Positions 21,420 through 45,656 of a stretch of DNA of 64,000 nucleotides are shown one piece after another. Source of the stretch: Amycolatopsis sp. WQ 127309. Lineage in GTDB: Bacteria > Actinomycetota > Actinomycetes > Mycobacteriales > Pseudonocardiaceae. Made by a program: the position numbers and the translations under genes. Under the pieces are notes generated by a model. It saw nothing but the letters and a program-made list of their open reading frames with translations. It ran no database searches and was not told where the DNA came from. The stretch is taken from NCBI RefSeq assembly GCF_023023025.1, contig NZ_CP095481.1:10367001-10431000 (forward strand), in the 5' to 3' direction. Positions within the stretch are counted from its first letter, which is position 1. Every line of letters begins with the position of its first letter.

Positions 21420-22118
21420 TCAGCTCGTTCCGGTGAGGTGGGCGTAGGCGACGATGTTGTCCAGGTAGCTGCGCGCCGCTCGGTCGAAGTCGCCACCGCA
21501 GGTGACCAGGCGTAGGCCCGCGTACTCGACTGCTCCGTAGACGTCCTCCGCCGGGAATCGGCTCTTCGGGTACTGCCTCAGGGCGTCGACCGTGAACGTG
21601 GCCGTTCTGCCGTCGCTGCGGCGGATGTGGATCTCGGCCCCCGGTGTGAGCTTGGACAGCCGGTAGAACACGGCCGGGCCGCGGTAGGAGTCGATGTGGC
21701 CCAGGATGACCGACGCGCCCGCCTCGCCCGGGGTCGGGCCGTAGTCGTACCACCCGGCTCTGCTGAAGTCCTTGGGCGACTCGACGGTCCGGTCGGGGTT
21801 GAGGCCCAGCGACAGCAGCGAACCGTCCACGCCGATGCTGGGCACCTGGATCGAGACCGGCGTCGACCGGGGCAACGGCACCGTCGGGCGGGGGGCCGGG
21901 CGGCCGGTGGGCGTCGTGGGCGGCGGGGTCTTCGTGGCCGGTGCGGGGATGCTGCCGGCCGCGGCGACGGGGTCTGGGCCGGGCTTGTGGGTGACGCCGG
22001 CCCAGACCAGGCCGCCGCCGGTCAGGGCCAGCACCACCGCGAGCGCCGGCAGGAGCACGCGGCGGCGCCGGCGGGCGTCGACACGACGCCCGCCGGGCTC
22101 GGGAACCTGGTCAGCCAC
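21420..22118 (-). CDS. Class F sortase
   Basis: 232 residues. A basic N-terminus and one membrane helix (about residues 18-38) are followed by a Pro/Thr-rich linker. The catalytic domain shows IQVPSIGVDGSLLSLGL, the catalytic histidine in LGHIDSYRG and the catalytic cysteine in LVTCGGDF. Class F sortases are actinobacterial transpeptidases that attach surface proteins. The GTG start lies inside the end of the upstream ferritin-like gene (8-base overlap), so the two are coupled and that protein is a candidate substrate. Confidence 0.88.
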   Translation of the reverse strand: MADQVPEPGGRRVDARRRRRVLLPALAVVLALTGGGLVWAGVTHKPGPDPVAAAGSIPAPATKTPPPTTPTGRPAPRPTVPLPRSTPVSIQVPSIGVDGSLLSLGLNPDRTVESPKDFSRAGWYDYGPTPGEAGASVILGHIDSYRGPAVFYRLSKLTPGAEIHIRRSDGRTATFTVDALRQYPKSRFPAEDVYGAVEYAGLRLVTCGGDFDRAARSYLDNIVAYAHLTGTS

Positions 22119-22869
22119 GGGTTTCTTCGTCGTCGCCCGGACGGCGGTGGCGGCCCACGGCGACCGCCGCCGCGCCGGCGACCAGGACCGCTCCGGTGGC
22201 CGTGAGGGCGATGCCGGTCTTGTCGTCGCTCGCACCGCCCGCGCCCATCGCCGGGGCGCCCTTCGGCACGGTCGGCGTGGCGACCAGGAACGGCGCGACG
22301 GCGGCGAGCACGGTCGCCTTGTCCTTCGGCGTCTCGGTGTTGCCCATGAAGACCCCGCCCTTGGCGGGCAGGCCGAGCAGGTTCCCGACGACCGCCGCGT
22401 GCCGGGCTTCCACACCGAAGATGCCCGCCGCGGCCTGCAGGATGGTCTTGTCCTTGACGAAGCCCGCCGCACCGAGGTAGGCGCCGACACCGACGTTCTC
22501 GAAGGTGTGGCTGGCCGTCAGGAAGCTCATGCGGTTGTCGAACGCGGCCCCGAAGTTCACCATCGGCGCTTCGACCGGGGTCCCGCCCAGCTTCTTGATC
22601 GTCGCGGTCAGGGTCGTGACGTGCGACTCCTCGTCGGACTGGATCTGCTTGAGGTAGTCGGCTTCCGCTCCTTCGAGGGAGACGGCTTTGTTGCCCTGGA
22701 CGTAGAACGCCGATTCGAGGTACTCCAGCGTCAGCGCGTAGTTGAGGACGTCGAGGTCGCTCCCGAAGTCGCCGGCCTGGGCCAGCGCCCAGCGGTTGTT
22801 GAGCGCGCCGAGTGCCAGCTGGGGCGAGACGTCGGTGGCCTGCCCGTGGATGAGATCACGCCTGTTCAT
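22111..22869 (-). CDS. Ferritin-like domain protein with C-terminal membrane anchor
   Basis: 252 residues. The core is the four-helix bundle of the desiccation/ferritin_2 group: LDVLNYALTLEYLESAFYVQ, DEESHVTTL and GVEARHAAVV provide the E..ExxH metal-ligand pattern. The C-terminus has a hydrophobic helix (TGIALTATGAVLVAGAAAVA) and then a basic RHRR tail, like a cell-wall sorting tail, but I see no clear LPxTG. No N-terminal signal peptide is obvious; MNRRDLIHG keeps a twin-arginine. The gene overlaps the sortase gene, which suggests anchoring at the surface (inference). Confidence 0.8.
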   Translation of the reverse strand: MNRRDLIHGQATDVSPQLALGALNNRWALAQAGDFGSDLDVLNYALTLEYLESAFYVQGNKAVSLEGAEADYLKQIQSDEESHVTTLTATIKKLGGTPVEAPMVNFGAAFDNRMSFLTASHTFENVGVGAYLGAAGFVKDKTILQAAAGIFGVEARHAAVVGNLLGLPAKGGVFMGNTETPKDKATVLAAVAPFLVATPTVPKGAPAMGAGGASDDKTGIALTATGAVLVAGAAAVAVGRHRRPGDDEETRG

Positions 22870-22896
22870 GAGTGCTTTCCTTACGAGGTCGGGAAG

Positions 22897-23553
22897 TCAG
22901 GAGAGGAACGGCTTGACGATGGCGAGGACTTCGTCCTTCGTCCGCTGCTTCTCGATGGGCGCGGGGAACGGCGCGCCGCCCATGAGCGAGGCCAGCACGG
23001 CCGCGTGCCGCGACTCCACACCGGCGATGGACGCGGCCGCGCCCAGCACGTCACCGCTCTTGATCAGCCCGACCTGACCGTGGTACGCCGTCACGCCGAC
23101 CTCTTCGAAGGTGGACGCCGCTTTCAGGAAACCCGCCTTGTCCTTGAACGTCTCGTCCGGGTACTTGATCGCCGGCTTGGCGACCGGGGTGCCGCCGAGC
23201 TGCTTGATCAACGCCGTGACCGCCGTGACGTGCGCGCTCTCGTGGTCGGCGATCTCGGTGATCAGCTCGAGTTCACGGCCGCTGACGAGCTTCTTCGCCA
23301 GCCCCATCGTGTAGAAGTCCGACTCCAGGTACTCGAGCGTCAACGCGTAGTTGAGGATCTCGAGATCACCCGCGTCACCGGCGGCCGGCGCGGCGATCGC
23401 CGAGGTCACCACCGACCCCAGGCCGCCCGCGACCAGGGTCGCGCCGACCCCGACCAGACCCGCCATCCGGAGGAAGGCCCGGCGGTCGGTCTCGCCGGCG
23501 ATACCCAGCACCGGCTTACCGCCGAAAACCCTGTCGTTCCTGAAAGATCGCAT
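22897..23553 (-). CDS. Tat-exported ferritin-like domain protein
   Basis: 218 residues. A twin-arginine signal (DRRAFLRMAGLVGVG, ending AIAAPAAG) precedes the same four-helix ferritin_2 fold as its neighbour: LEILNYALTLEYLESDFYTM, ADHESAHVTAV and GVESRHAAVL. It is a paralogue of the gene 27 bases downstream, and the two appear to form one operon with the sortase. I start at the ATG 23553, which gives a normal Tat leader. Members are linked to stress or desiccation, without a proven reaction. Confidence 0.82.
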   Translation of the reverse strand: MRSFRNDRVFGGKPVLGIAGETDRRAFLRMAGLVGVGATLVAGGLGSVVTSAIAAPAAGDAGDLEILNYALTLEYLESDFYTMGLAKKLVSGRELELITEIADHESAHVTAVTALIKQLGGTPVAKPAIKYPDETFKDKAGFLKAASTFEEVGVTAYHGQVGLIKSGDVLGAAASIAGVESRHAAVLASLMGGAPFPAPIEKQRTKDEVLAIVKPFLS

Positions 23554-24072
23554 TCGACACCACGCTCTCTGCGCGCTGCGTCCGGCTCGAAGCCGAGCAG
23601 GCTCGTTGGTGAGATCCGGCCGGAGCAAAGACGAAAGTCAGCGAAACCGGCGATCATCCGAGTGCGGGCGGCAACCTCACCGGTTGCCGCGCACCCCGGG
23701 TCGGACCGCCTCGGCCAGATCTCGGATCGGTGTCCACCGACCACCATGGTTCGGAGGCCCACCCGATCGGGTTCACCCGGTAAGGCGACCCGGCCGGCCT
23801 GCAGAACACCCGGATTCTCCGGGCGCATCCCCGCCACCTGCGACGAAACGCACATCAGGGTGAGAAATCCCCTGACCTGATCCTCGCGAGGATCACTCTG
23901 ATGGCCCAGTCTCCGCGGCACCGGTCCGCCGGGCTTCGTCCGCGCGGCGCCGGCTCGGACCAAGCCCGACGCGCCAATGCCTCGAACGCTTCATGGACAG
24001 GCAGCCCGGCCCCCGCTGCCCGAAACGAGTTCACGTTCTGTCGTTCAGACTGCCGAGACAGGAATCGCGGCC
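23554..24072. promoter_or_regulatory. 519-bp divergent upstream region with an 18-bp perfect palindrome
   Basis: No gene is seen. TGATCCTCGCGAGGATCA at 23878-23895 is a perfect 18-bp palindrome between the ferritin-like operon and the divergent sigma factor, well placed as an operator for either. No protein can be assigned to it. Confidence 0.55.
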
Positions 24073-24603
24073 ATGGAAGAACTGCTCGAGCGGGTGGCGT
24101 GCGGAGACCGTTCCGCCTTCGACCGGTTGTACCGGGAATTCTTCGGCCTGGTCTTCCACATCGTGTTCGGCGTGGTGCAGGACCACGCGCAGTCCGAAGA
24201 GGTCACCCAGGAGACGTTCCTCGAACTCTGGGCGACAGCGGCCCGCTTCGACGTCGCGCAGGGCACCGGCGCCCGCTGGGTCACGATGATCGCGCGGCGG
24301 CGGGCCGTCGACCGGGTGCGCGCGGCACAGGCGGCGCGCGAGCGCGACAACCTGGTCGCCCGACAAGCGTTGATCCCGACCGAGCCCGATCCCAGCGAAC
24401 AGGCCCTCACCGGGGCCGAGGTCCGCAGGCTCCGGGACGCGCTGGCGAAACTGCCGAAGGAACAGCAGATCCTGCTCACGCGGGCCTACATCGACGGGGT
24501 GGCCTACCGGGAAATCGCCGCGGCACTGGGGATTCCGGTCAACACCGTGAAGTCGCGCGTGCGGCTGGCCGCGGCCAAGCTCCGGGAGCTGATCCCGCGT
24601 TGA
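24073..24603 (+). CDS. ECF RNA polymerase sigma factor, SigK-like (orphan)
   Basis: 176 residues. Region 2 is seen in FDRLYREFFGLVFHIVFGVV and SEEVTQETFLELWATAARFD, then WVTMIARRRAVDRVRAAQ. Region 4 is LPKEQQILLTRAYIDGVAYR followed by EIAAALGIPVNTVKSRVRLA. The closest relative in the window is SigK at 32541, with the same EEVTQE and RRAVDRVR motifs. No anti-sigma gene adjoins it. The ATG at 24073 has AGGAA upstream; an in-frame ATG at 23977 would add a poorly conserved leader. It faces the ferritin-like/sortase operon and could control it. Confidence 0.88.
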   Translation: MEELLERVACGDRSAFDRLYREFFGLVFHIVFGVVQDHAQSEEVTQETFLELWATAARFDVAQGTGARWVTMIARRRAVDRVRAAQAARERDNLVARQALIPTEPDPSEQALTGAEVRRLRDALAKLPKEQQILLTRAYIDGVAYREIAAALGIPVNTVKSRVRLAAAKLRELIPR

Positions 24604-30713: not shown

Positions 30714-30740
30714 ATTCGGAACCCCCGGGGAACCGGATTG
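30714..30740 (-). promoter_or_regulatory. SigK-type promoter of fasciclin copy 1
   Basis: On the minus strand CAATCC, 15 bases and CCGAAT. This is close to the mycobacterial SigK consensus (CCATCC / CCGAAT) as I recall it, and is repeated at three other starts in this island. Confidence 0.65.
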
Positions 30741-30758
30741 GTTTCGGGGAAGGTTTTC

Positions 30759-32342
30759 TCAGGCGGCCGTGAACGTGACGTTGTGCCAGCCGGTCGCGCC
30801 GTCGGGAACGGTGCCCGCGCGCATGTCGGTCTGGGTGTAGCCGGACTTGTCGGTGGCGCGGCAGAACACCTGGTGCACGCCGGCGGGCAGGTCGACCTCG
30901 GTCCACCACATCCGCCAGGTGTTGAGGTTGACCTCCTGCGACAGCGTGGTTTGCTGCCACGGGCCCTGGTCCACGCGCACCTCGACCTTCTCGATCCCGG
31001 TGTGCTGGGCCCACGCCACGCCCGCGACGCGCGTCTTCCCCTTGGGGACGCTGGCGAACCCGCGGTGCGAATCGAACCGCGACTCCGTCTTGATCGGCGC
31101 TTCCTTGCTCCAGCCGCGCTTCAGCCAGTACGCCTGACGCGCGGCCCACGTCGTGACCTCGATGTCCACGACCCACTTCGTCGCCGACACGTAGCCGAAC
31201 AGGCCGGGCGTGACGAGCCGGGCGGGAAAACCGTGTTCCAGCGGGAGCGGCTCGCCGTTCATGCCGATGGCGAGCATCGCGCCGCGGCCTCGATCCTGGG
31301 CGGCCGCGACGGGCGTGCCGGAGGTCCAGCCGTCGACGCTGGTGCAGAACAGCTGCTCGGCGCCGGGTTTCACGCCGGCTTCCTGCAGCAGGTCGGCCAG
31401 GTCGACGCCGATGAAGTTCGACGTCGACACGTAGTCGCCGCCGACCTCGTTGGACACGCACGTCATGGTGACGGTGCGCTCGACCAGCGGCCGGTTGCGG
31501 ATGTCGTTGTAGCTGTAGCGGATTTCGCGGCCGACCATGCCGTGCAGCCGCAGGCTCCAGTCCTCGGTCCGCACCTGCGGCACCGACAACGCCGTGTCCA
31601 CGCGGTAGAACTTGTCGTTGGGCGTCAGGAACGGCGGCGTGCCCAGCTTGGCGAAGTCGGCGTCCGCCGGGATCATCGGCGCCGTGCGCGCCGGGACGAG
31701 CTTGCCGACCGCCTCCCGGGACGCGGTGGCGTCGCGGGACGAGCTGATCAGCTGCCCGCCGAGACCGGCCGCGCCGGCACCCACGACGACACCCGCGCCG
31801 CCGATCAGGAACCGCCGCCGGGACGTGCCGGTCTTCTCGTCGGTCTCCGGGTCGCGCCACACCCGCGGCGCGATCCGGTGCAGGAGAAGGAAAACCGCGA
31901 CGCCGACGATCAGGCTGGCGACCGGGGCCAGCAGCGCGACCGCGCTCAGGTCCGGGCGCTGGTAGACGGCGAACGCGCCGACCAGGCCGAACACGGCGAT
32001 GAGCACGGTGCCCGGCACCGGCGACCGTCGCGAAAGGACACCCGCGAGCGCGGCGACGCCCACCATGACCACGGCCATGCTGCCCAGCAGCACGAGCTTG
32101 TCGTAGGTGCCGAACGTGCGGACGGCGAAGTCCTTCAGCTCGATCGGCGTGAGGTCGATGGCGCCGTTGCCCACCGCGAGGTAGGGCGAGGCGTTGATGC
32201 TGATGAACCCCGCGACCAGGTGCCCGGCCGCCAGTGCGGCGGCCAGGGCGAGGACGCCGGTGAAAGCGGCCGCGAAAAACCGCAGCCGCGTCTTCCCCGG
32301 TGGCGCGGGTGTCTCGGGGCGAGCCAGTTCCGTTGCGGTCAT
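30759..32342 (-). CDS. Membrane molybdopterin-dependent oxidoreductase (sulfite-oxidase fold)
   Basis: 527 residues. Residues 20-155 hold four or five membrane helices. A twin-arginine-like RRRFLIGGAG at 175-184 and a helix follow. Then comes a sulfite oxidase/YedY-type molybdopterin domain with the molybdenum cysteine Cys295 (MTCVSNEVGGDY) and KWVVDIEVTTW. The last 100 residues form the Mo-co dimerisation domain (RVAGVAWAQHTGIEKVEVRV). It resembles mycobacterial Rv0218. The substrate is unknown; methionine sulfoxide or sulfite are possible by analogy. The promoter motif lies only 7 bases before the ATG, so the mRNA is probably leaderless. Confidence 0.88.
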   Translation of the reverse strand: MTATELARPETPAPPGKTRLRFFAAAFTGVLALAAALAAGHLVAGFISINASPYLAVGNGAIDLTPIELKDFAVRTFGTYDKLVLLGSMAVVMVGVAALAGVLSRRSPVPGTVLIAVFGLVGAFAVYQRPDLSAVALLAPVASLIVGVAVFLLLHRIAPRVWRDPETDEKTGTSRRRFLIGGAGVVVGAGAAGLGGQLISSSRDATASREAVGKLVPARTAPMIPADADFAKLGTPPFLTPNDKFYRVDTALSVPQVRTEDWSLRLHGMVGREIRYSYNDIRNRPLVERTVTMTCVSNEVGGDYVSTSNFIGVDLADLLQEAGVKPGAEQLFCTSVDGWTSGTPVAAAQDRGRGAMLAIGMNGEPLPLEHGFPARLVTPGLFGYVSATKWVVDIEVTTWAARQAYWLKRGWSKEAPIKTESRFDSHRGFASVPKGKTRVAGVAWAQHTGIEKVEVRVDQGPWQQTTLSQEVNLNTWRMWWTEVDLPAGVHQVFCRATDKSGYTQTDMRAGTVPDGATGWHNVTFTAA

Positions 32343-32349
32343 ACCCGGC

Positions 32350-32379
32350 GTTCGGCTCTGACCCGCCCAGCGTATTGGT
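32350..32379 (-). promoter_or_regulatory. SigK-type promoter of the molybdopterin oxidoreductase
   Basis: On the minus strand ACCAATAC, 16 bases and CCGAAC. The -10 element ends 7 bases before the ATG, implying a leaderless transcript. ACCAATACGC recurs in inverted orientation at 32444, upstream of sigK. Confidence 0.6.
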
Positions 32380-32443
32380 GCCGTGACCTTCCCGACACCC
32401 ACGATCACCCGAAAGGGGCGTCGGCCGCTCGGCTGGAACAACG

Positions 32444-32472
32444 ACCAATACGCACCGGGGTCGACCTCGAAC
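32444..32472 (+). promoter_or_regulatory. SigK-type promoter of sigK-rskA
   Basis: ACCAATAC, 15 bases and TCGAAC, 68 bases before the sigK ATG. It mirrors the divergent element of the molybdenum enzyme gene, which suggests autoregulation of sigK. Confidence 0.55.
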
Positions 32473-32540
32473 ATCTGAAGACAGGCCGCTCGCAGCGATC
32501 CACTGCGTCACAGGCTCGGCTCCGGCCGGGAAGGACTTTC

Positions 32541-33158
32541 ATGGCCGCCGCCGCACGCGCCACCACCGTAACCCTCCTCCATCGACCCACCGGCACCCAC
32601 CCGGACAACGCGCCCGCCACCCCCGAAGAACTCCTCCGGCGATCCGCGCTGGGCGACGAGCAGGCTTTCGCCCTGCTCTACGACCAGCTCGCGAGCCCGA
32701 TCTTCGGCACCGTGATGCAGGTCCTGCGCAGCCGCGCGCAGTCCGAAGAGGTCACCCAGGAGGTGCTGCTCGAAATCTGGCGCAAGGCCGCCCAGTTCGA
32801 CTCCGCGCGGGCGAAGGTCAGCACGTGGGCGCTGACGATCGCCCACCGCCGGGCCATCGACCGGGTCCGCTCCGAGCAGTCCGCCCGCAACCGGCAGGAA
32901 CGATCCGACCTGCTGGACATGCGACGCCCGTACGACGACGTCGCCGAGTCGACGATGTCCACTGTGGACCGCGACCTGGTCCGGGAGGCGCTGGGCGTGC
33001 TCACCGATCTGCAGCGGGAGTCGATCCTGCTCGCCTATTTCCACGGACTCACCTGCCGGGAGGTCGCCGAAAAGCTCGGCGTCGCGATCGGCACCGTCAA
33101 AACCCGCATGCGCGACGGCATGATCCGCCTGCGGGACGCGTTGGGAGCGACCCGATGA
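32541..33158 (+). CDS. sigK: ECF sigma factor SigK
   Basis: 205 residues. Region 2: FALLYDQLASPIFGTVMQVL, SEEVTQEVLLEIWRKAAQFD, then WALTIAHRRAIDRVRSEQSA. Region 4: LQRESILLAYFHGLTCREVA followed by EKLGVAIGTVKTRMRDGMIR. Identity as SigK rests on the sequence type, the directly following RskA gene (ATGA overlap) and the surrounding fasciclin and dipZ genes, which in mycobacteria form the SigK regulon. AAGGA precedes the ATG. Confidence 0.92.
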   Translation: MAAAARATTVTLLHRPTGTHPDNAPATPEELLRRSALGDEQAFALLYDQLASPIFGTVMQVLRSRAQSEEVTQEVLLEIWRKAAQFDSARAKVSTWALTIAHRRAIDRVRSEQSARNRQERSDLLDMRRPYDDVAESTMSTVDRDLVREALGVLTDLQRESILLAYFHGLTCREVAEKLGVAIGTVKTRMRDGMIRLRDALGATR

Positions 33159-33847
33159 CCACCGCCGAAGCCCACACCCTCACCGGTGCGTACGTCCTCG
33201 ACGCCGTCACCGACCTCGAACGCGCCGCCTTCGACCGTCACCTGGCCGAGTGCGGGACCTGCGCCGCGGAAGTCCGCGAACTCCGGGAGACCGCCGCGCG
33301 CCTCGGTGCCGCGATGACGGCCGTCCCCGGCAACGGCCTGCGCAGCCGGGTGCTCACCGCGGTCGCCGAGACCCGGCAGCTCCCGCCCCGGGTGGCACCC
33401 GCCGCCGCGCGACGGACGTGGCGCAAGCGCGCCACGATCGTCACCGCGTCGATCGCGGCCGCCGCCGCGATCCTGGTCGGCGGCGTCGGGATCGGCCTGT
33501 CGCAGACCGGCACCACACCGGTTCCGGTCGCCGGCTCCGCCCAGGTCCAGAACGCCTCGGACGCCGTCACCGTCCGGGCCGGCGCGGCCACCGCGATCCT
33601 CTCGCGGTCGCTCGGCCGGGTCGTCGTGACCGCCTCGGGGCTGCCCGCGCTCGACGCCGGGCACGCCTACCAGGTCTGGCTGATCGGCCCGCGCGGTCCG
33701 CAGTCCGCCGGCCTGCTGCCGGCGGGCGACGGGACGCTCGGCGCGGTCCTGCCGGGCGACACCGACCGGGTCGCCATCACCACGGAGCCCGCGGCGGGCT
33801 CGCCGCAGCCGACCACCGCCGCCGTGGCGCGGCTCCCGCTGGCCTGA
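33155..33847 (+). CDS. rskA: Anti-sigma-K factor RskA
   Basis: 230 residues. The N-terminal cytoplasmic anti-sigma domain has the zinc motif His29, Cys33, Cys36 (HLAECGTCAAEVREL). A membrane helix spans about 93-113. The extracytoplasmic RskA domain (AGHAYQVWLIGPRGPQSAGL) ends the protein. In mycobacteria RskA holds SigK until cleaved by regulated proteolysis. The start overlaps the sigK stop (ATGA), giving equal production of the pair. Confidence 0.95.
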   Translation: MTTAEAHTLTGAYVLDAVTDLERAAFDRHLAECGTCAAEVRELRETAARLGAAMTAVPGNGLRSRVLTAVAETRQLPPRVAPAAARRTWRKRATIVTASIAAAAAILVGGVGIGLSQTGTTPVPVAGSAQVQNASDAVTVRAGAATAILSRSLGRVVVTASGLPALDAGHAYQVWLIGPRGPQSAGLLPAGDGTLGAVLPGDTDRVAITTEPAAGSPQPTTAAVARLPLA

Positions 33848-33870
33848 CCGGACCCGTCGTCACAGCGAGG

Positions 33871-33911
33871 CGGGCGAGCGGGGTACCGCGATCCGGTGCC
33901 CCGCTCGCCCG
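33871..33911 (+). terminator. Terminator of sigK-rskA
   Basis: CGGGCGAGCGGGG and its perfect complement, extended by four more pairs including one G-U, begin 23 bases after the rskA stop. Confidence 0.75.
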
Positions 33912-33980
33912 GTCCGCCCGGGCCCACCACTTACGCTGTCCTGGTGCTCCGGACCGACCGGAGGCGGGGAGGCGAGCCCG

Positions 33981-35777
33981 GTGCCGGACGGCAGACCCGA
34001 CCTGGTCCTCTGCGACCCGGGGCGGACGGGCGCGTTGCACGACAGCGGGCTCTCGGCCCGCGCGGACAGCGCGATGGACCGGTTCGCCGCCATGGTCCGG
34101 GTGCAGCTGCGGGTCCCGGTGGCGCTGGTGTCCCTGGTCGAGCCGGACCGCCAGGTCTTCCCCGGCATGCAGGGGCTCCCCGAGCCGTGGGCCACCGCCC
34201 GCCACACCCCGCTCAGCCACTCGTTCTGCCAGCACGTCGTCATCACCGGCGAACCGCTCGTGCTCGCCGACGCCCGCACGGTGGCGCTGACCAGCGACAA
34301 CCTGGCCATCCCCGACCTCGGCGTCGTCGCCTACGCGGGCATCCCGCTGACCGACACCGACGGCCACGTGCTCGGCTCGCTGTGCGCGATCGACACCCGG
34401 CCGCGGACCTGGACCGGCGACGAGATCGCCACCCTGACGGACCTGGCGACGATGTGCGCCACCGAGATCCGCCTGCGCCTGGCCACCCGGCAGAGCAAGC
34501 GCGACCGCGACCGCCGGGACGAGCTGGCCACCCAGCTCGACCGCGCCCACGCCCGCAACGAGATCCTGCTCAGCGCCGCACAGGCGCTGGCCGGGAGCCG
34601 GACGCTGGCGCAGATCCGCCACGAGATCAGCTGGTTCGTCTCCGCCGAGCACCGGCCGACCTACATCGGGCTGGTCGTCGCCGAGCCCGGCGGGATGCTG
34701 CGCCGGGTGCCCGAGCCGGGCCGCCCGGCCCTCGCCGACGCCGAGTTCGGCGTCTTCCGGGCCGACGCCGCCCTGGCCACGGCGAAGGCGTTCCGCGAAC
34801 GACGGCTGCTGTGCTACGAGGACCCGGCCGCGATCGACGCGGAGTTCCCCGACGCCGTCGGGCGGCTCTACCGCGACCTGCGCCTGCACGCGACGGCCTG
34901 TGCGCCGCTCGTCGGCAGCCGGGACGTCCTCGGCGTCCTCACCCTCGGCTGGGACCGGCCGCACGCGCTCGACAGCGCCGAGCGCGCCGTGATCACCACC
35001 CTGGCCACCTACACCGCCCAGGCGCTCGAACGCGTCCGCCAGCTCGAGCGGCGGATCAGCGTGGCCCGCGAGCTGCAGGAAGCCATGCTCACGGACCTGC
35101 CGTCGGTGCCCGGCCTGCGGCTCGCGGCCCGCTACCGGCCGTCCGAGGTCGACGAAGCCGTCGGTGGCGACTGGTACGACGCCGTCCCGCTCCCCGGCGC
35201 GCCGGCCCTGGCCGTGACGGTCGGCGACATCACCGGCCACGACGTCCACGCATCCACGCTGATGGGGCAGGTCCGCAGCATGATGCGCCAGACCGCGTGG
35301 AACCTGCCCGACGCCGGCCCGGCCGCGACCGTCGAAGCCCTGGAGGCCGCCCTGACCGGGCTGGACATCCCCGCGAGCGGCACGCTGCTGCACGCGCACC
35401 TGAGCCCGGACGGCACCGGCCGCTGGGAGCTGACGAGCACCAACGCGGGCCACCCACCCCCGATCCTGGTCCACGCCGACGGCCGCACAGAGCTGCTCAC
35501 CGAGCACGACGCGCTCTTCAGCCACCTGGGCTTCCGGACCCGCGACCGCACGGACCAGCGACGGACCCTGGAGCCGGGCGACCTGGTCTTCCTCTACACG
35601 GACGGCCTCATCGAACGCCGCGGCGAAGACCTCGACCGGGCCATCGACCGCCTCCGCACGCTGCTCTCCCGGCTGGCCGGCCAGGCCCCAGAGGCCATGG
35701 CCGACGCCGCACTGGAGCACATGGTGGAGCCGGGCGGCCACGAGGACGACGTCGTCCTGCTGGCGATCGGCACCTGA
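33981..35777 (+). CDS. GAF-domain PP2C-type (SpoIIE) serine phosphatase
   Basis: 598 residues from a GTG. An N-terminal GAF domain (residues 30-170; SFCQHVVITGEPLVLADART and AYAGIPLTDTDGHVLGSLCA) is followed by a second GAF-like domain (190-335) and a short coiled linker (RRISVARELQEAML). The C-terminal SpoIIE phosphatase has metal-binding aspartates in GGDWYDAVPL, VGDITGHDVHA and GGHEDDVVLLAIG. Such RsbU-like enzymes dephosphorylate anti-sigma antagonists. The matching HATPase kinase type is seen at 46203, but no link is proven. It stands alone after the sigK-rskA terminator. Confidence 0.9.
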   Translation: MPDGRPDLVLCDPGRTGALHDSGLSARADSAMDRFAAMVRVQLRVPVALVSLVEPDRQVFPGMQGLPEPWATARHTPLSHSFCQHVVITGEPLVLADARTVALTSDNLAIPDLGVVAYAGIPLTDTDGHVLGSLCAIDTRPRTWTGDEIATLTDLATMCATEIRLRLATRQSKRDRDRRDELATQLDRAHARNEILLSAAQALAGSRTLAQIRHEISWFVSAEHRPTYIGLVVAEPGGMLRRVPEPGRPALADAEFGVFRADAALATAKAFRERRLLCYEDPAAIDAEFPDAVGRLYRDLRLHATACAPLVGSRDVLGVLTLGWDRPHALDSAERAVITTLATYTAQALERVRQLERRISVARELQEAMLTDLPSVPGLRLAARYRPSEVDEAVGGDWYDAVPLPGAPALAVTVGDITGHDVHASTLMGQVRSMMRQTAWNLPDAGPAATVEALEAALTGLDIPASGTLLHAHLSPDGTGRWELTSTNAGHPPPILVHADGRTELLTEHDALFSHLGFRTRDRTDQRRTLEPGDLVFLYTDGLIERRGEDLDRAIDRLRTLLSRLAGQAPEAMADAALEHMVEPGGHEDDVVLLAIGT

Positions 35778-35849
35778 CACCGGCGCCGTGCTCGTCTCGC
35801 TCCGCCCCCGCCAGTGCCGTGGACCGATCGGCGCGGAGGACGGGCTCGG

Positions 35850-36161
35850 CTACAGGGCGCCGGCGATGTCCGACAGCAGTGCGGTCTTCTTCTTCGCGCC
35901 GATGATCTGCTTCACCGGCTCGCCGTTCGCGAACAGGATCATCGTCGGGAGCGACATCACCTGGTAGTCGCGGGCGGTGTCCGGGTTGTCGTCGACGTTC
36001 AGCTTCACGAACGTCACGTCGCTCTGTTCGGCCGCGATCTCTTCGAGCACCGGCGTGAGCTTCTTGCACGGTCCGCACCAGGTCGCCCAGAAGTCGACCA
36101 GAACGGGCTTCTCGCTGTGGAGGACGTCGGTGGCGAAACTGGCGTCAGTGACTTCCAACAT
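35850..36161 (-). CDS. trxA: Thioredoxin
   Basis: 103 residues, a complete thioredoxin fold: VLVDFWATWCGPCKKLTPVL with the redox pair Cys29-Cys32, the cis-proline in VMSLPTMILFANG, and the C-terminal helix. AGGAGAAG precedes the ATG. It directly follows the collapsed trxB, the usual trxB-trxA order, so this thioredoxin must be reduced by a reductase encoded elsewhere. It is co-directional with dipZ and may be expressed with it. Confidence 0.95.
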   Translation of the reverse strand: MLEVTDASFATDVLHSEKPVLVDFWATWCGPCKKLTPVLEEIAAEQSDVTFVKLNVDDNPDTARDYQVMSLPTMILFANGEPVKQIIGAKKKTALLSDIAGAL

Positions 36162-36164
36162 GGC

Positions 36165-36548
36165 TTCTCCTCATGGTTGTGCTGTGTTCGGCGAGCCGGC
36201 GTTCCGCGTCGATCGCGGCGCTGCAGCCGGAGCCGGACGCGGTGATGGTGTCCTTCAGCTTCAGGCCCTCGACCTTTCGTCAGGAAGGTCGCCTCCTCCA
36301 TCGCCGAGTCGCCACCACCGGCGACCACGATGTCGTGGTCGCGGAAGAAGGTCCGGACCCATGATGCCGTCGCGAAACCCGGGGAAGTTCTCGACCTCGG
36401 TCGTCGTCATCAGCGCGCCACCGAACTGCGTGCCCTCGAACACCAGCGGTTCGAGTTGCGCCCGCGCCGCGTAAACGGCAGCGGTGTATCCGGCAGGACC
36501 CGACCCGACGACGATCAGGCCCCGCACCTCTTCTTGTCCCTCAAGCAT
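36165..36548 (-). pseudogene. trxB: Thioredoxin reductase gene with two large internal deletions
   Basis: Three segments of TrxB survive in order. The N-terminal FAD motif is intact ([20 protein letters not shown] through [14 protein letters not shown]). Next, in another frame, comes [20 protein letters not shown], then TFLTK, from the NADPH domain. Last is LKDTITASGSGCSAAIDAER, then RLAEHS, from the C-terminus. About 80 and 130 residues are missing at the two joins, including the catalytic CATC. Only about 384 of roughly 950 bases remain, so it cannot encode an active reductase. The ribosome site and ATG at 36548 are still present. Confidence 0.88.
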
Positions 36549-36567
36549 TTCCGTGGTCCTCGCGTGC

Positions 36568-38334
36568 TCAGTCGAAGGTGAACGAGTAAGCCTGCAGACC
36601 CGGGCTGAGCGTCAACGTCAGCTGGCCGGTGTGCAGGTCCGGCGTCTGCGTCAGGCGGTACAGGTTCGGCGTCCCGGACACCTTGATCGTGCGCGACGGG
36701 CCGTCGCCGTTCGCGATCGTCACCGTGCCCTCGCCCGCCAGCACCAGGTTCGTGCTCCTGGCCGTGTACCCGAGCCGGACCTCCGCGCCCGCGCCCGCCG
36801 TGGACTTCTCGTAGTCGACCGTCCAGTTGCCGGCGAACGCGACCTTGCCGTCCGGCACCACCGACGGGAACGCGTAGCTCGTTTCCTTCTCCAGCGCCAG
36901 CGGGGTTCCGCCCGGGGCGTAGGTCTTCGGCAGCTCGCCGCGGCTGAGGTACGTCTCGCGGGTCGTGCGCTGATCCGTCGGCCTGGTGTCGGGCAGGTCG
37001 CCCGGCGCCGGCAGGGCCACACCCGGCTTGGCCTGCTGCAGCAGCTGCCGGACCAGGTTCTCCGTCTGGTCGTAGTCGCCTTCACCGAGCTTGAAGTAGC
37101 GGACCTGCCCGGTCGCGTCGATCAGGTAGCGCGCCGGCCAGTACTGGTTGCGGAAGTTGTTGAACGTGCTCGTCTCGTTGTCGATCGCCACCGGGTAGGT
37201 GATGCCGAACTTCTTCGTCGCGGCCTCGACGTTGCCCTTGTCGTGCTCGAACGCGAACTCCGGCGTGTGCACGCCGACGACTTCGAGACCGTCGGCCTGG
37301 TAGCGGGAGTAGAGGTCCTTGATGTGCGGGATGCTGCGCTGGCAGTTGATGCAGGAGTACGTCCAGAAGTCGACCAGCACGACCTTGCCCTTGAGCCCGG
37401 CCATCGTCTGCGGCGAGCTGTTGATCCAGGCGTCGATGTTCTCGAACTCCGGCGTCGGCCCGCAGTCGCGCAGCCGGCCCTGGTCGTTGTTCGCGCACTT
37501 GTCCAGCGCCTGGTTGCTCGCGTCACCGAGGTTCGACAGCCGCAGCTTGCCGATCGCGTCGCTGCCCTCCACCTTCTCCTGCAACGCACCCGTGTAGTCC
37601 GGCAGCTTGGTCTGCAGCAGCGACGGCAGGTCGAAGTACAGCGCCACCGCGAGCAGCAGCATGACGACGCCGCCGATCGCGCGGACCTTGCCGTTGTTCT
37701 TGCGGAAGAACTTCACCCGCTCCGAGATCTTGGCCCCCGCCAGAGCGAACACCAGCAGCGGCGCGGTCGCGCCGATCGCGAAGGACACGGTGAGAGCAAC
37801 CGTCTCGACACCGATCTTGCCGTTGGCCGCGGCGATCGTGATCGCGGTCAGGACCGGTCCGGCGCACGGGACGTACAGCAGCCCGAGCCCCAGCCCGAGG
37901 CCGAAGCCGCCGCCGTTGGGGTTGACCTTCCGCTGCGGCAGCTTCGAGAACGGCTTCTCCAGCAGGCGTTCCAGCGGCGGGACCAGCAGGCTCAGGCCCA
38001 CGACCGACAACACGACCAGCCCGACGATCCGCAGGATGTCGTCCGGCAGGTTCAGCGCCTTGATCAGCAACGAGCCGAGCAGGGTGAAGACGGTGAAGCT
38101 CAGCACGAGCCCGCCGATCACCGCGTACGGCCGCCGGTTGCGGGCCCGTTGCTGCTTCCGGGTCGCCACCGCGACCCCGCCGTCCCCCGCGACGTCCGGC
38201 TCGGGCGGTGGCTCACCGTCGGCCGTCTTCTTGGCTCCACCGGCGAAGAACACGACCGGCAGCACCGGCAGGATGCACGGCGACACCCCCGTGATCAACC
38301 CGCCGAGCAAACCGATCAGGATCAAGGTCCACAT
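36568..38334 (-). CDS. dipZ: DipZ: CcdA-thioredoxin-like fusion, membrane thiol-disulfide transfer
   Basis: 588 residues. Residues 1-240 are a CcdA/DsbD-type membrane domain with its redox cysteines Cys20 ([11 protein letters not shown]) and Cys157 ([10 protein letters not shown]). An extracytoplasmic TlpA/thioredoxin domain has Cys328-Cys331 ([11 protein letters not shown]) and [21 protein letters not shown]. The C-terminal about 130 residues are the DipZ carbohydrate-binding-like sandwich. It should carry electrons from cytoplasmic thioredoxin to exported proteins. In M. tuberculosis dipZ lies between mpt83 and mpt70 and is SigK-dependent, matching the neighbourhood here. Confidence 0.95.
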
Positions 38335-38497
38335 CGCCGCACTCCTCCGAAGTCCCCGGCCCGTCGTCCGAGGGCCTGCGTCGGTCATTCGCGGCAGCCA
38401 CGGCTCCAGGTGGGTACTTTTTTCCGCGTTATCGGTTCGAACAATCCTCTGGATCCGCAAGTGCGGAATACTGGGCCCCGGCGGGGAGGAGGTGGAG

Positions 38498-38953
38498 ATG
38501 GAACGGACGCGGGTCGCGGTACTGCTGGACCGCCACCAACCCGGCCGGTCACCGCGCTCGATCGCGGCGTCGGCCGGCCTGCCCTCCCTGGGCGACTGGC
38601 TCCGGCCGGGCGAACGGCCCGCCGAGCTCATCCCACCGGAGGCGATGATCCGGGTGGCGATGACGCTCGACCTGCCGGTGTCGATGGTCTCGCGCGCGTT
38701 CACCGGGACGTGGTACGACCTCAACGGCTGGGAGTGGAACCACTTCCACCGCGGCGACCGGGTCGTCGTGTTCAGCGCACCCGATCCCGCGACGGGCGCG
38801 CGCCAGGCCACCCGCGGCACCGTCCGCGACGTCGACCCGCTCGACATCATCGAGGTCGAGTTCGACGACGGCACCCGCTACAGCCGGATCCCGGAGACCG
38901 AGGGCATGATCTGCCACGCGAGCGGCGGGTGCCGCTGCGGCCTTCCCCGGTAA
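38498..38953 (+). CDS. Hypothetical HTH plus small beta-domain protein
   Basis: 151 residues after a GGAGGAGG ribosome site. The N-terminal half (RVAVLLDRHQPGRSPRSIAA, then PEAMIRVAMTLDLPVSMVSR) resembles a XRE-like helix-turn-helix. The C-terminal half (FHRGDRVVVFSAPDPATGAR, then VDPLDIIEVEFDDGTRYSRI) looks like an SH3-type barrel and ends in CHASGGCRCG. I know no family. CAATCC, 16 bases and CGGAAT lie upstream at 38442-38469, a weaker match to the SigK-type motif. It is divergent from dipZ. Confidence 0.7.
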   Translation: MERTRVAVLLDRHQPGRSPRSIAASAGLPSLGDWLRPGERPAELIPPEAMIRVAMTLDLPVSMVSRAFTGTWYDLNGWEWNHFHRGDRVVVFSAPDPATGARQATRGTVRDVDPLDIIEVEFDDGTRYSRIPETEGMICHASGGCRCGLPR

Positions 38954-38973
38954 CGCGTTTCGGCCGACGGCAA

Positions 38974-39013
38974 AACGGGCGGGGCACCGGAGGTATCCGG
39001 TGCCCCGCCCGTT
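38974..39013. terminator. Bidirectional terminator
   Basis: A perfect 17-bp stem (AACGGGCGGGGCACCGG and complement) with a 6-base loop lies between two convergent genes ending at 38953 and 39033. The arms end in AAAA/TT, so it can work both ways. Confidence 0.85.
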
Positions 39014-39032
39014 ACGGGGTACGAGGAACAGC

Positions 39033-39308
39033 TCAGCCGAGGTCGAACAGGCCACCGCCGCCGAGCAGGCCGTCGTCCCAGCCGCCGTCGTGACCGCCGT
39101 CGTGACCGTAGTGGCCGCCGGTGATCCGCAGGCCGATCAGGATGCTCAGGTTCAAGCCGTGGTCGTGGTGGTGGTGATCGGCGACCGCGGCGGTCACCTG
39201 CGGAGCCGCGGTGGAGGCGGACGCCGCCCCCGGCGCGATCAGCAGGAAGCCGAGTGCCGCGGCCGGCAGTGCGGCGGTCGCCAGGACGCGACGGCGGAGT
39301 GTGCTCAC
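39033..39308 (-). CDS. Small secreted His/Gly/Asp-rich protein
   Basis: 91 residues. A clear signal peptide (RRRVLATAALPAAALGFLLI, cleavage near ASA) precedes a mature part of about 58 residues with DHHHHDHG and HYGHDGGHDGGWDDG. The His/Asp/Gly clusters suggest metal binding. No family is recognised. It has AAGGAGA before its ATG and shares a terminator with the gene at 38498. It lies inside the SigK island, so its control by SigK can be asked. Confidence 0.68.
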   Translation of the reverse strand: MSTLRRRVLATAALPAAALGFLLIAPGAASASTAAPQVTAAVADHHHHDHGLNLSILIGLRITGGHYGHDGGHDGGWDDGLLGGGGLFDLG

Positions 39309-39662
39309 GGTGATCTCCTTCTCCTCGAACGAACAACGGACCTGATCCCGGCGGGATCACTGGTCGTTCGCCGCCGCTGTGGGCGAAAGACGGGCACCGG
39401 ACCGTGGACCACGCCTGTGGGTGACGAGCGGAGTTTCCGGCGAGCACGGTCCACACCGGACGCCGTGATCTCGGCGGCGGACGTTCCGGAAGCACGTCCG
39501 TTCACCTGATCGAGTTAATCGTGCGACCGGACCCGTCCGCCGCCGCGGCGGCTGCGAATCCCAGCACGACGCACCGCCGAAACGTTCCGGCGGTCGTGCC
39601 GGACCACCGGCACCAGGTAGTCCACAGTGGACTGCTTCAGCCGCTCAATAGGAGTGATCTTT
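39309..39662. other. 354-bp gene-free region upstream of fasciclin copy 2
   Basis: No gene is seen. It holds the divergent starts of the secreted His-rich gene and the fasciclin gene, including the SigK-type motif at 39556-39582. Confidence 0.5.
39556..39582 (+). promoter_or_regulatory. SigK-type promoter of fasciclin copy 2
   Basis: GAATCC, 15 bases and CCGAAA, 81 bases before the GTG start. Same spacing as the motif of copy 1, with one substitution in each box. Confidence 0.5.
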
Positions 39663-40337
39663 GTGACCAAGCTTCGTGTCGCCGGAATCGGCATCGCCGC
39701 GGCTGCCGCCCTGGCCCTGACCGCGTGTGGCAGCAGCGACACCGCGTCGTCGGGCAGCTCCAGCGCCCCGGCCCCGTCGTCCTCGATGGCCGCCCCGTCG
39801 ACCAGCGCCGCCGCGGGTGCTTCCGATGGCATGACGACCAACGCCGACGTCTTCGGCCCGGCCTGCTCGCAGCTGCCGCAGGGTTCCGCGCCCGGTTCGC
39901 TGGACTCGATGGGCCCGCAGCCCGTCGCCTCCGCCGCCTCGACCAACCCGCTGCTGACCAAGCTGGTCGCCGCGGTCAAGGCCACCAACCTGGTCGACAC
40001 CCTCAACAGCGCGCCGGCCATCACGGTGTTCGCGCCGGCCGACCCGGCCTTTGCCGCGCTGGGTGACGCCAAGTTCAACGAGCTGGCGGGCAAGCCGGCC
40101 GAGCTGTCGCCGATCCTGCAGTACCACGTCGTCGGCAAGCGTTACGACGCCAAGGGCCTCGCGTCCGCCGGCACCCTCGACAGCCTCAACGCCGCCGGTG
40201 GCCCGCTGAAGATCGAAGGTACCGGCGACAACATGACCGTCAACGGCGCGAAGATCCTCTGCGGCAACATCCCCACCAAGAACGCCACCGTCTTCGTCAT
40301 CGACAAGGTGCTCACCCCCGGCACCAACAAGCAGTAA
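39663..40337 (+). CDS. Fasciclin-domain lipoprotein (MPT83-like), copy 2
   Basis: 224 residues from a GTG preceded by AGGAG. The signal peptide (MTKLRVAGIGIAAAAALALT, lipobox ending at Cys22) differs from copy 1 at six or seven positions. From residue 25 on, the protein is identical to copy 1 apart from an extra C-terminal Gln. The FAS1 motifs are the same. Near-identity at DNA level in the mature part points to recent duplication or gene conversion. It probably mediates surface adhesion or receives thiol/redox modification with DipZ (inference). Confidence 0.93.
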   Translation: MTKLRVAGIGIAAAAALALTACGSSDTASSGSSSAPAPSSSMAAPSTSAAAGASDGMTTNADVFGPACSQLPQGSAPGSLDSMGPQPVASAASTNPLLTKLVAAVKATNLVDTLNSAPAITVFAPADPAFAALGDAKFNELAGKPAELSPILQYHVVGKRYDAKGLASAGTLDSLNAAGGPLKIEGTGDNMTVNGAKILCGNIPTKNATVFVIDKVLTPGTNKQ

Positions 40338-44651: not shown

Positions 44652-45656
44652 GTGTTTGGCAAGCGTTACGCCGCTTCGATGATCAACCGGAGCGCGGAGA
44701 ACGACCAGGACCGCCGCCGCTTCCTCAAGGCCGCCGGTATGACCGGGCTCGGCGTCGTCGGCGCCGGTGCGCTCGGCGGTCTCACCAACGGGACCGCGTC
44801 CGCGGCCACCGCACGACCGGCCGCGGCCGCCGCGGCGGCCGCGGCGAGCGGGGTGAGCGACGGGGCGGTGCTCAACTTCGCCCTCAACCTCGAGTACCTC
44901 GAAGCCGAGTTCTACCTGCACGCCGTCACCGGCAAGGGCCTCGCCGACGCGATGACCACCGGCACCGGCACCCGCGGCGGCGTCACCGGCGGCCGCGCGG
45001 TGAAGTTCAAGACCAAGGCCGCCAAGCAGTACGCGCAGGAGATCGCCGGCGACGAGAAGGCGCACGTCCAGTTCCTGCGTTCCGCCCTCGGCTCCGCCGC
45101 CGTCAGCCGCCCCGCGATCGACCTGCAGTCCAGCTTCACCGCCGCGGCCCAGGCCGCCGGCCTGGTCAAGCCCGGCCGCAGCTTCGACGCCTTCGCGTGC
45201 GAGGAGAACTTCCTGCTCGCCGCGTTCCTCTTCGAAGACGTCGGCGTCACGGCCTACAAGGGCGCCGCGCCCTTGATCACCAACAAGACCTACCTCGAAG
45301 CCGCGGCGGGCATCCTCGCCGTCGAGGCCTACCACGCGGCCAACATCCGCAGCGCGCTCTACCAGCACAACGAAGGCATCCTCGGGCTCGGCCTGCTCGG
45401 CCGCGACCTCCGGGAGGCCAGCGTGAAGCTGTCCAACGCGCGGGACAGCCTCGACGGCCCGACCGACGACGACCAGGGCGTCATCGACAGCCACGGCAAC
45501 GCCAACATCGTCCCCACCGACGCCAACGGCATCGCCTACAGCCGCTCCCCCGGTCAGGTCCTCAACATCGTCTACCTGACGAACAAGGCCGCCACCTCCG
45601 GCGGGTTCTTCCCCAAGGGCGTCAACGGCGAAGTGAACACCAGCGCCGCCAACTGA
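44652..45656 (+). CDS. Tat-exported ferritin-like (ferritin_2/DUF4439-like) protein
   Basis: 334 residues. The twin-arginine signal is [20 protein letters not shown], with cleavage near TASAAT. The core repeats the four-helix pattern of the proteins at 22111 and 22897 ([53 protein letters not shown]) but is longer, with a C-terminal domain ending GEVNTSAAN. The GTG at 44652 has GGAGGAG upstream; an earlier in-frame GTG gives no conserved residues. A tatB gene follows, fitting the Tat signal. Confidence 0.85.

Follow-up and report, generated by a model that had tools for sequence, protein, structure and literature searches.

A probable SigK-type island with a molybdopterin oxidoreductase and fasciclin lipoprotein genes in Amycolatopsis sp. 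WQ 127309

The sigma factor gene sigK1 of Amycolatopsis sp. WQ 127309 and its anti-sigma factor gene rskA1 lie next to genes for a molybdopterin oxidoreductase (MoOx) and for fasciclin lipoproteins, and this neighbourhood raises the question whether sigma factor and neighbours belong to one regulon and, if so, how far it reaches. We analysed a 64-kb stretch around the pair (the window), which spans positions 10367001-10431000 on a single contig 11.13 Mb long and has a GC content of 72%. According to our data, it is very probably an island of a regulon governed by a SigK-type extracytoplasmic function (ECF) sigma factor, in an extended and partly joined form. The original prediction of an autoregulated SigK-type island with fas1, MoOx and sigK-rskA is backed by three conserved promoter-like sites; its further members, fas2, dipZ and a helix-turn-helix (HTH) gene, fared differently. 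The features are collected in Table 1.

Table 1. Genes and promoter-like sites discussed in the text (window positions, apart from SigK2 and SigK3, which are given in genome positions)
Feature	Coordinates	Strand	Remarks
fas1, fasciclin-domain lipoprotein (MPT83-like), 223 aa	29977..30648	-	PF02469 3.1e-29; lipobox-like start in translation
Putative SigK-type promoter of fas1, CAATCC-N15-CCGAAT	30714..30740	-	matrix score 33.8; identical in G078
MoOx, molybdopterin oxidoreductase, hydrophobic N-terminal part, 527 aa	30759..32342	-	PF00174 6.3e-41
Putative SigK-type promoter of MoOx, CAATAC-N16-CCGAAC	32350..32377	-	-10 ends 7 nt before ATG
Putative SigK-type promoter of sigK1-rskA1, CAATAC-N15-TCGAAC	32446..32472	+	matrix score 12.5
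sigK1, ECF sigma factor, SigK subfamily	32541..33158	+	NCBIfam NF007228 SigK 245 bits, cut-off 226
rskA1, anti-sigma factor, RskA N and C domains	33155..33847	+	PF10099 3.4e-19, PF22618, NF052375
GAF-GAF-SpoIIE phosphatase	33981..35777	+	PF07228, PF01590; just downstream of rskA1
Thioredoxin, downstream of dipZ	35850..36161	-	PF00085 5.2e-33
dipZ, DsbD_TM and thioredoxin-like	36568..38334	-	PF02683, PF17991
Gene originally described as HTH protein	38498 (start)		Pfam: DUF4314 match only, sub-threshold
Fourth site of the original prediction, GAATCC-N15-CCGAAA	39556..39582	+	matrix score 7.5
Decayed homologue of the fas2 promoter, CGAAAC-N15-CCGGAC	39578..39604	+	58 nt before GTG; alignment with G078 L195
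fas2, fasciclin lipoprotein	39663..40337	+	PF02469 3.2e-29; GTG start
Candidate SigK-type promoter of fer1, CAATCC-N15-CCGAAA	44539..44565	+	matrix score 6.7
fer1, exported Ferritin_2 protein, twin-arginine-like start	44652..45656	+	PF13668 1.7e-46 on 44679-45656; GTG start, VFGK
SigK2, 57% identical to SigK1	654918-655487		followed by rskA2, perfect site, third fasciclin gene (fas3)
SigK3, 54% identical to SigK1	10531648-10532196		with rskA3; 10.53 Mb, outside window

All four motif strings named in the original prediction are present in the window, the first and fourth at exactly the positions given and the second and third each 2 nucleotides shorter. Written as [CG]AATMC-N15/16-YCGAAH, the pattern finds these four and a fifth site, previously missed, upstream of the ferritin-like gene fer1; none of 300 dinucleotide shuffles reaches five matches (mean 0.12, maximum 1), and the narrower CAATMC-N15/17-NCGAAH gives four matches in the window versus 0.09 in 100 shuffles. 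Beyond the window, the whole-genome tests consisted of pattern searches together with fetched stretches of genome, in which the terms “upstream” and “inside” depend on our own codon-usage gene caller, trained on eight window genes; some of its starts look wrong (L126, L215, L218). The pattern CAATMC-N15/16-CCGAAH occurs ten times in the 11.13 Mb, the reversed control never. Eight of these matches sit before a gene on the right strand, a situation that applies to 3-6% of positions in the window and eight fetched stretches. Of the other two, the first falls within a gene (L011), and no gene is called near the second (L014). Relaxing the first -10 base to N adds six matches, among which the promoters of sigK1 and of the CMAS gene at the SigK3 locus precede genes. 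Across the genus the strict motif is found in 60 of 60 genomes, our own included, with 372 matches versus 12 for the reversed pattern; this total is our addition of rows, inflated by an eightfold repeat in G014, and the reversed control preserves base composition and not codon use.

The sites can be traced in the same gaps of relatives. Our comparative set comprises 80 MoOx loci, nearly all from Pseudonocardiaceae, to which some genomes contribute two. MoOx and a fasciclin gene are adjacent in 68 of them, and the gap between the two carries CAATCC-N15-NCGAAT in 39 of these 68 loci. The same hexamers at spacings of 10-14 and 16-21 are absent from all 68 gaps, and letter-permuted hexamers give a mean of 0.011 (maximum 5). 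A looser pattern, which admits spacings of 15-17, finds 41 gaps, every one with N15, and 39 of these 41 sites have T at the unconstrained last position of the -10 hexamer. That the sites are chance matches, in a GC-rich genome where CAAT and CGAA are conspicuous, is therefore hardly conceivable: although genes of other genomes contain some strict matches, neither the shuffled windows nor the permuted hexamers come near the observed counts.

A matrix trained on these 41 sites, all from other genomes, extends this picture. Its fixed hexamer columns are circular because the training sites were selected by pattern; the spacing, the last -10 base and the flanks are not. At a score of at least 12 it recovers 42 of the 43 Amycolatopsis gaps and none of the 68 on the opposite strand (0/43 in Amycolatopsis). 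Of the 68 gaps, 41 belong to the training set (35 of the 43 from Amycolatopsis); among the 27 held-out gaps, seven of eight in Amycolatopsis reach this score. In the window the matrix ranks fas1 first (33.8), then sigK1 (12.5), then a site at 39533 (11.7). Upstream of 44 fasciclin copies from 14 genomes, 35 score at least 12; the nine below include fas2 (11.7), L195 (11.0) and L221 (6.3), and six have no matrix match at all (L199, L204, L209, L215, L218, L223).

MoOx could be aligned from residue 1 in 18 loci, ten of which have the motif within 80 nucleotides, and in all ten the -10 hexamer ends 7 nucleotides before the ATG, as it does in the window. This distance predicts a leaderless MoOx mRNA, and the transcript is probably leaderless. 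In G078, the nearest relative found, both hexamers of the MoOx promoter are unchanged and 4 of 16 spacer bases differ; likewise the hexamers of the sigK1 promoter are unchanged with 3 of 15 spacer bases different. At fas1 the spacer is unchanged as well, so that this site is informative only in more distant species. The two half-sites at fixed spacing could also fit a protein dimer, in which case the motif would bind a conserved activator or repressor and would not be a -35/-10 promoter. We regard this as very improbable, since the half-sites form neither a palindrome nor a repeat, the 7 nucleotides to the MoOx start codon suit a promoter, and the motif follows SigK-type loci. The sites of fas1, MoOx and sigK-rskA, in contrast to the fourth one, have counterparts in place in relatives and look like real SigK-type promoters. 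The motif also resembles CCATCC/CCGAAT, given in the original prediction as the mycobacterial SigK consensus.

This fourth site, proposed as the promoter of fas2, lacks a counterpart at the corresponding position in relatives. In G078 the fas2 orthologue (L195) carries CCATCC-N15-CCGAAC ending 58 nucleotides before its start, and the alignment, which continues past the end of the gene, puts the homologous but decayed promoter of the window further downstream (Table 1). The originally predicted site is out of register, its -10 (CCGAAA) overlapping the homologous -35, and the entry of fas2 into the regulon by this route is not borne out. An alternative, CCGTCC-N15-GCGAAT at 39533-39559 (score 11.7), is not at the homologous place. 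The weaker match before the HTH gene fares no better: at 38442-38469 CGGAAT breaks the otherwise kept CGAA (score 6.1), and the gene has no tblastn match listed in the 80 MoOx loci, so we rejected it as a target. The window dipZ is separated from fas2 by two genes, has no SigK-type site upstream in the matrix scan and is itself probably outside the regulon, contrary to what had been proposed. Nor is dipZ a conserved member of the MoOx-sigK island, as none of the 80 MoOx loci contains a dipZ match at 1e-10; at E<=1e-100 the gene is found in 13 of 80 Amycolatopsis genomes.

Elsewhere in the genus these loci are joined. A dipZ gene (about 50% identity) faces a fasciclin gene with a SigK-type site on each strand of the gap in G020, G002, G006, G018 and G079, and the arrangement of dipZ next to fasciclin genes with a site at each, absent from the window, exists in the first four of these, with G079 having one fasciclin gene. 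The other scanned dipZ loci (L147, L148, L155, L162) have no such site. In G079 the order is dipZ, two divergent sites, fas, a site, sigK (78% identical) and rskA, with the motif at all three promoters, and in G071 fer, fas, a dipZ remnant, fas, MoOx, sigK and rskA lie inside 13 kb. Because of these two arrangements, the proposal that loci separate in M. tuberculosis are joined here holds within the genus. A single regulon comprising all four originally predicted sites, fas2 and the HTH gene included, together with dipZ, could draw on the site of the G078 fas2 orthologue and on the paired sites in the fas-dipZ gaps of five other genomes; with a decayed fas2 site, no dipZ site and a broken CGAA before the HTH gene in the window, it is improbable. 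The order dipZ-thioredoxin is repeated in four other genomes. Between these two genes, a 95-aa open piece (36261-36548), searched as a piece only, matches pyridine nucleotide-disulphide oxidoreductases and may be a broken thioredoxin reductase gene.

The fasciclin genes themselves are dispersed in four copies: fas1, fas2, G000:C1 653362-654024 and G000:C1 9485805-9486476. The DNA identity of each fasciclin domain to that of its nearest copy is 96-98%, and the flanks and signal peptides differ. fas1 and fas2 are 98% identical and their G078 counterparts 100%, exceeding the only ~94% between the genomes, which suggests concerted evolution, probably through gene conversion. Among 42 fasciclin copies, genome labels cluster above all 200 shuffles, yet several copies are closer to one of another genome. 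The fourth copy, fas4, has the variant site CGATCC-N15-CCGAAC (score 14.7).

Less surely, fer1 would be a target of the SigK regulon as well. Sites stand before fer-like genes in G030, G007 and G019, and that of L040 scores 23.6. Reading 19 strict sites in three other genomes, we found three before fasciclin genes, three before fer-like genes, two before an amine-oxidase gene and one before a gene that reads like a peroxiredoxin; the site of L126, counted as inside a gene, probably precedes an amine-oxidase gene too, five more lie inside genes, and the others are unassigned. Here, the gene of a secreted protein of 323 aa has CAATCC-N16-CCGAAA, and its relatives have the same at two G071 loci and one G070 locus. 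The genes for Lipoprotein_15 (L015), a STAS protein (L012) and an alpha/beta hydrolase (L013) are candidate members. Besides, a strict site at G000:C1 10281699 precedes a Lipoprotein_15 gene (L119 6096-6726) whose neighbour encodes another ECF sigma factor. Other Amycolatopsis genomes also have strict sites whose spacer ends similarly (AACCGGCACCGAA), and the site may for this reason belong to the adjoining sigma factor.

Which sigma factor would read these promoters? SigK1 scores within the SigK subfamily, rskA1 adjoins it with an overlap (sigK1 end 33158, rskA1 start 33155), and the motif stands before both sigK1 and a fasciclin gene. The best solved relative of SigK1 is the SigK of 4nqw (5.5e-43), and a sigma factor of the ECF11/ChrR type does not fit: sigma and anti-sigma factor assign to SigK and RskA, and Rhodobacter RpoE is a weaker match (2.1e-21). 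The genome, however, has three SigK-RskA pairs about equally close to 4nqw SigK (SigK1 150.5, SigK2 157.4, SigK3 151 bits), of which only SigK1 lies in the window. The original prediction, which covers the pair in the window, is thus incomplete, and the M. tuberculosis-like pair among the other two lies outside the window. This is SigK3, at whose locus an apparent operon of amine oxidase, DUF1365, sigK3 and rskA3 faces CMAS and DUF1295 genes (Pfam); the divergent gap carries CAATCC-N15-GCGAAG and CAATCC-N15-GCGAAT. We take the order amine oxidase/DUF1365/CMAS/DUF1295/sigK/rskA to be the Rv0449c-Rv0444c arrangement of M. tuberculosis. These neighbours are found around SigK3 and not around SigK1.

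The amine-oxidase locus links the motif to this second type of SigK locus. Homologues of the gene occur in 43 of 101 genomes across the order, and C[AC]ATCC-N15-[CG]CGAA (followed by T, C or G) precedes the amine oxidase in 11 of 30 loci, always with N15 when 14-17 were allowed: five of five in Amycolatopsis and six elsewhere, in three other families (two CCATCC, four CAATCC). Over both strands of the remaining 160 kb of these loci there are seven matches, and three of the reversed pattern. In M. tuberculosis, sigK is autoregulated via the Rv0449c promoter (PMC7509140).

The paralogues differ in their cysteines. The redox pair Cys133/Cys183 (names of PMC7509140), which we matched via alignment to the 4nqw chain and not by residue number, is replaced by alanine at both positions in SigK1 and in its orthologues of G078, G079 and G074, the three checked, whereas SigK2 and SigK3 retain both cysteines. 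Since the pair is common and not universal (94% in ECF18, 56% in ECF19; PMC7509140), SigK1 remains eligible for the SigK family. RskA1, RskA2 and RskA3 all carry HX3CX2C of the zinc-anti-sigma type (N-terminal in RskA1), which is absent from the 4nqw RskA chain. As a tentative and rather unlikely scenario, an ancestral SigK may have split into two paralogues with the cysteine pair and SigK1 without it, the latter freed from thiol control on the sigma side and serving an envelope-repair island of leaderless MoOx, fasciclin lipoproteins and a ferritin-like protein that answers photo-oxidative stress, with gene conversion keeping up to four dispersed fasciclin genes almost identical as a dosage array within this regulon.

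The genes for fas3, fas4, the secreted protein, amine oxidase/DUF1365 and the cyclopropane synthase have putative promoters of the same type, and for this reason the three paralogues probably share or divide one regulon. It is a real possibility, short of an even chance, that the promoters are genuine and are read by another sigma factor with the same specificity (SigK2, SigK3 or an unrelated ECF), with SigK1 responsible for only a subset. A perfect site separates SigK2-rskA2 from fas3 immediately downstream, SigK3 stands within the amine-oxidase/DUF1365 locus, many relatives have MoOx-fas with the motif and no sigK match in the stretch covered, and the -10 of sigK1 (TCGAAC, often ACGAAC in relatives) differs from the fas-type CCGAAT. 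In the nearest relatives, however, it is the SigK1-type genes (65-90% identity) that are divergent from MoOx, and in G079 such a gene stands beside fas-dipZ. Control of the island by SigK1 is the reading that we follow below. At at least 45% identity, sigK is present in 24 of the 80 MoOx loci in various orders and orientations.

Several observations weigh against such an island or narrow its reach. With three paralogues present, SigK1 may not act at each site. A loose match lies upstream of only 12 of the 24 sigK genes just mentioned, and outside Amycolatopsis only 6 of 25 amine-oxidase loci have the motif. Beyond this genus the motif also drifts or is missing in the MoOx-fas gaps (9 of 25 at score 12; 3 of 19 among the untrained). 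Upstream of MoOx, loose matches are present in 25 of the 80 loci, 15 of them at other distances from the aligned part; 55 loci have none, only ten of the 25 have a resolved start, and even the closest MoOx (L019, 95% identical) has no loose match. The matrix did not list the MoOx site of the window (score under 6), because training used N15 sites only. The fer1 site scores just 6.7 and is patchy: in a scan of six fer loci, L025 reaches only 7.5 and four have no site, and no site precedes fer in the further loci L156, L159, L160 and L237. Finally, 6 of the 19 strict matches read in other genomes fall inside called genes, so genome-wide matches are not all promoters.

Three further observations concern the surroundings of the SigK modules. 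The SpoIIE phosphatase gene, which adjoins rskA in G078 too, has no SigK-type site of its own in the matrix scan of the window. SigK-type sites precede an HATPase_c_2 gene (G071 L237 9152-9655) and a STAS gene (G000:C1 5892963-5893357), and it is possible that these proteins and the phosphatase are parts of a partner-switching system connected with this regulon. A fourth SigK-like ECF sigma gene (24073-24603, 39% to SigK1) faces two Ferritin_2 genes (window 22111-24603); no rskA-like gene is called beside it, and a weak SigK-type match lies before it (CAAGCC-N15-TCGAAC at 23961, score 6.7). Conversely, an rskA-like gene in G070 (L156 6461-7210, 58%) has no sigK called beside it; its stretch also holds a fasciclin gene, a fer2-like gene and a gene related to that of the 323-aa secreted protein.

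The mechanism that follows is inferred from what is known of the family; the sigma assignment, the signal and the function are inferred as well. The membrane protein RskA1 would hold SigK1 until an envelope signal inactivates RskA1 and frees it; SigK-loaded RNA polymerase would then read CAATMC-N15/16-NCGAAH promoters and raise sigK1-rskA1 by autoregulation, together with fas1 and the leaderless mRNA of MoOx; fer1 is a less certain part of this output. The function is most likely to protect and repair proteins and lipids of the envelope that have suffered photo-oxidative or other oxidant damage. This fits the gene content: MoOx is near SoxC/SorA/MsrP (it matches the NCBIfam SoxC/SorA/SorT/MsrP models, all under their cut-offs), fasciclin and ferritin-like proteins are encoded as well, and the SigK3 locus has lipid-modifying genes. 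We give about an even chance to photo-oxidative or oxidant stress on the envelope being the signal; we favour it because of this gene content together with reports on light, singlet oxygen, furan fatty acids and ultraviolet (UV) radiation. In M. kansasii, mpk83 and mpk70 are light-induced (PMC9861118); the regulon that RpoE controls under singlet oxygen in Rhodobacter sphaeroides includes CfaS and a fasciclin gene (PMC7074977); UfaO, which acts in furan fatty acid synthesis, has DUF1365 (PMC7380195); and RskA is lowered by UV in an actinobacterium (PMC8965627). The light argument is weakened by M. kansasii dipZ, which is not light-induced despite a putative SigK site (PMC9861118).

Comparable systems are known. 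The SigK-RskA regulon of the M. tuberculosis complex (Rv0449c-Rv0444c and mpt83-dipZ-mpt70) shares the SigK-family sigma factor, RskA and fasciclin lipoproteins, and is alike in the position of dipZ beside fasciclins in relatives and in the motif C[AC]ATCC-N15-CCGAAT in genus and order. There, mpt83, mpt70 and dipZ each have a SigK-dependent promoter (PMC9861118). In contrast to M. tuberculosis, the SigK1 of the window has no redox cysteines, RskA1 has the HX3CX2C that 4nqw RskA lacks, sigK1 has its own putative promoter beside MoOx, MoOx and perhaps Ferritin_2 would be targets, and the amine-oxidase/DUF1365 locus lies elsewhere in the genome, around SigK3. The mpt83-sigK-rskA cassette (Veyrier et al., 2008, per PMC7509140) likewise places a fasciclin gene with a SigK site by sigK-rskA; unlike this cassette, the arrangement here includes a molybdenum oxidoreductase, occurs in several gene orders and belongs to a genome with three SigK-RskA pairs. 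The targets of RpoE-ChrR (ECF11) in R. sphaeroides, namely the fasciclin RSP_1409, CfaS and UfaO (DUF1365), resemble those described here (PMC7074977; PMC7380195), a likeness taken from their descriptions, and both ECF group and anti-sigma class are different.

The cassette and conserved SigK sites across Actinobacteria are already published (PMC7509140); what is added here are the proposed targets, the split into paralogues and the probable gene conversion among fasciclin genes. Among the titles and abstract starts listed, which did not extend to the key 2008 J Bacteriol paper, nothing places MoOx or Ferritin_2 in a SigK regulon, and the words “molybd” and “fasciclin” do not occur in PMC7509140. 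SigK-RskA controls the antigens MPT70 and MPT83 of mycobacteria, and its stimuli are described as obscure (PMC9861118). In this context, the conserved SigK-type targets (MoOx, ferritin-like proteins in some species and amine oxidase/DUF1365/CMAS) point to envelope damage, oxidant or photo-oxidative, as a signal that can be tested, and a genome that holds paralogues both with the cysteine pair and lacking it offers a natural experiment on the redox control of SigK. If true, a regulon of the M. tuberculosis type would extend to a molybdenum enzyme and ferritin-like proteins in a soil actinomycete.

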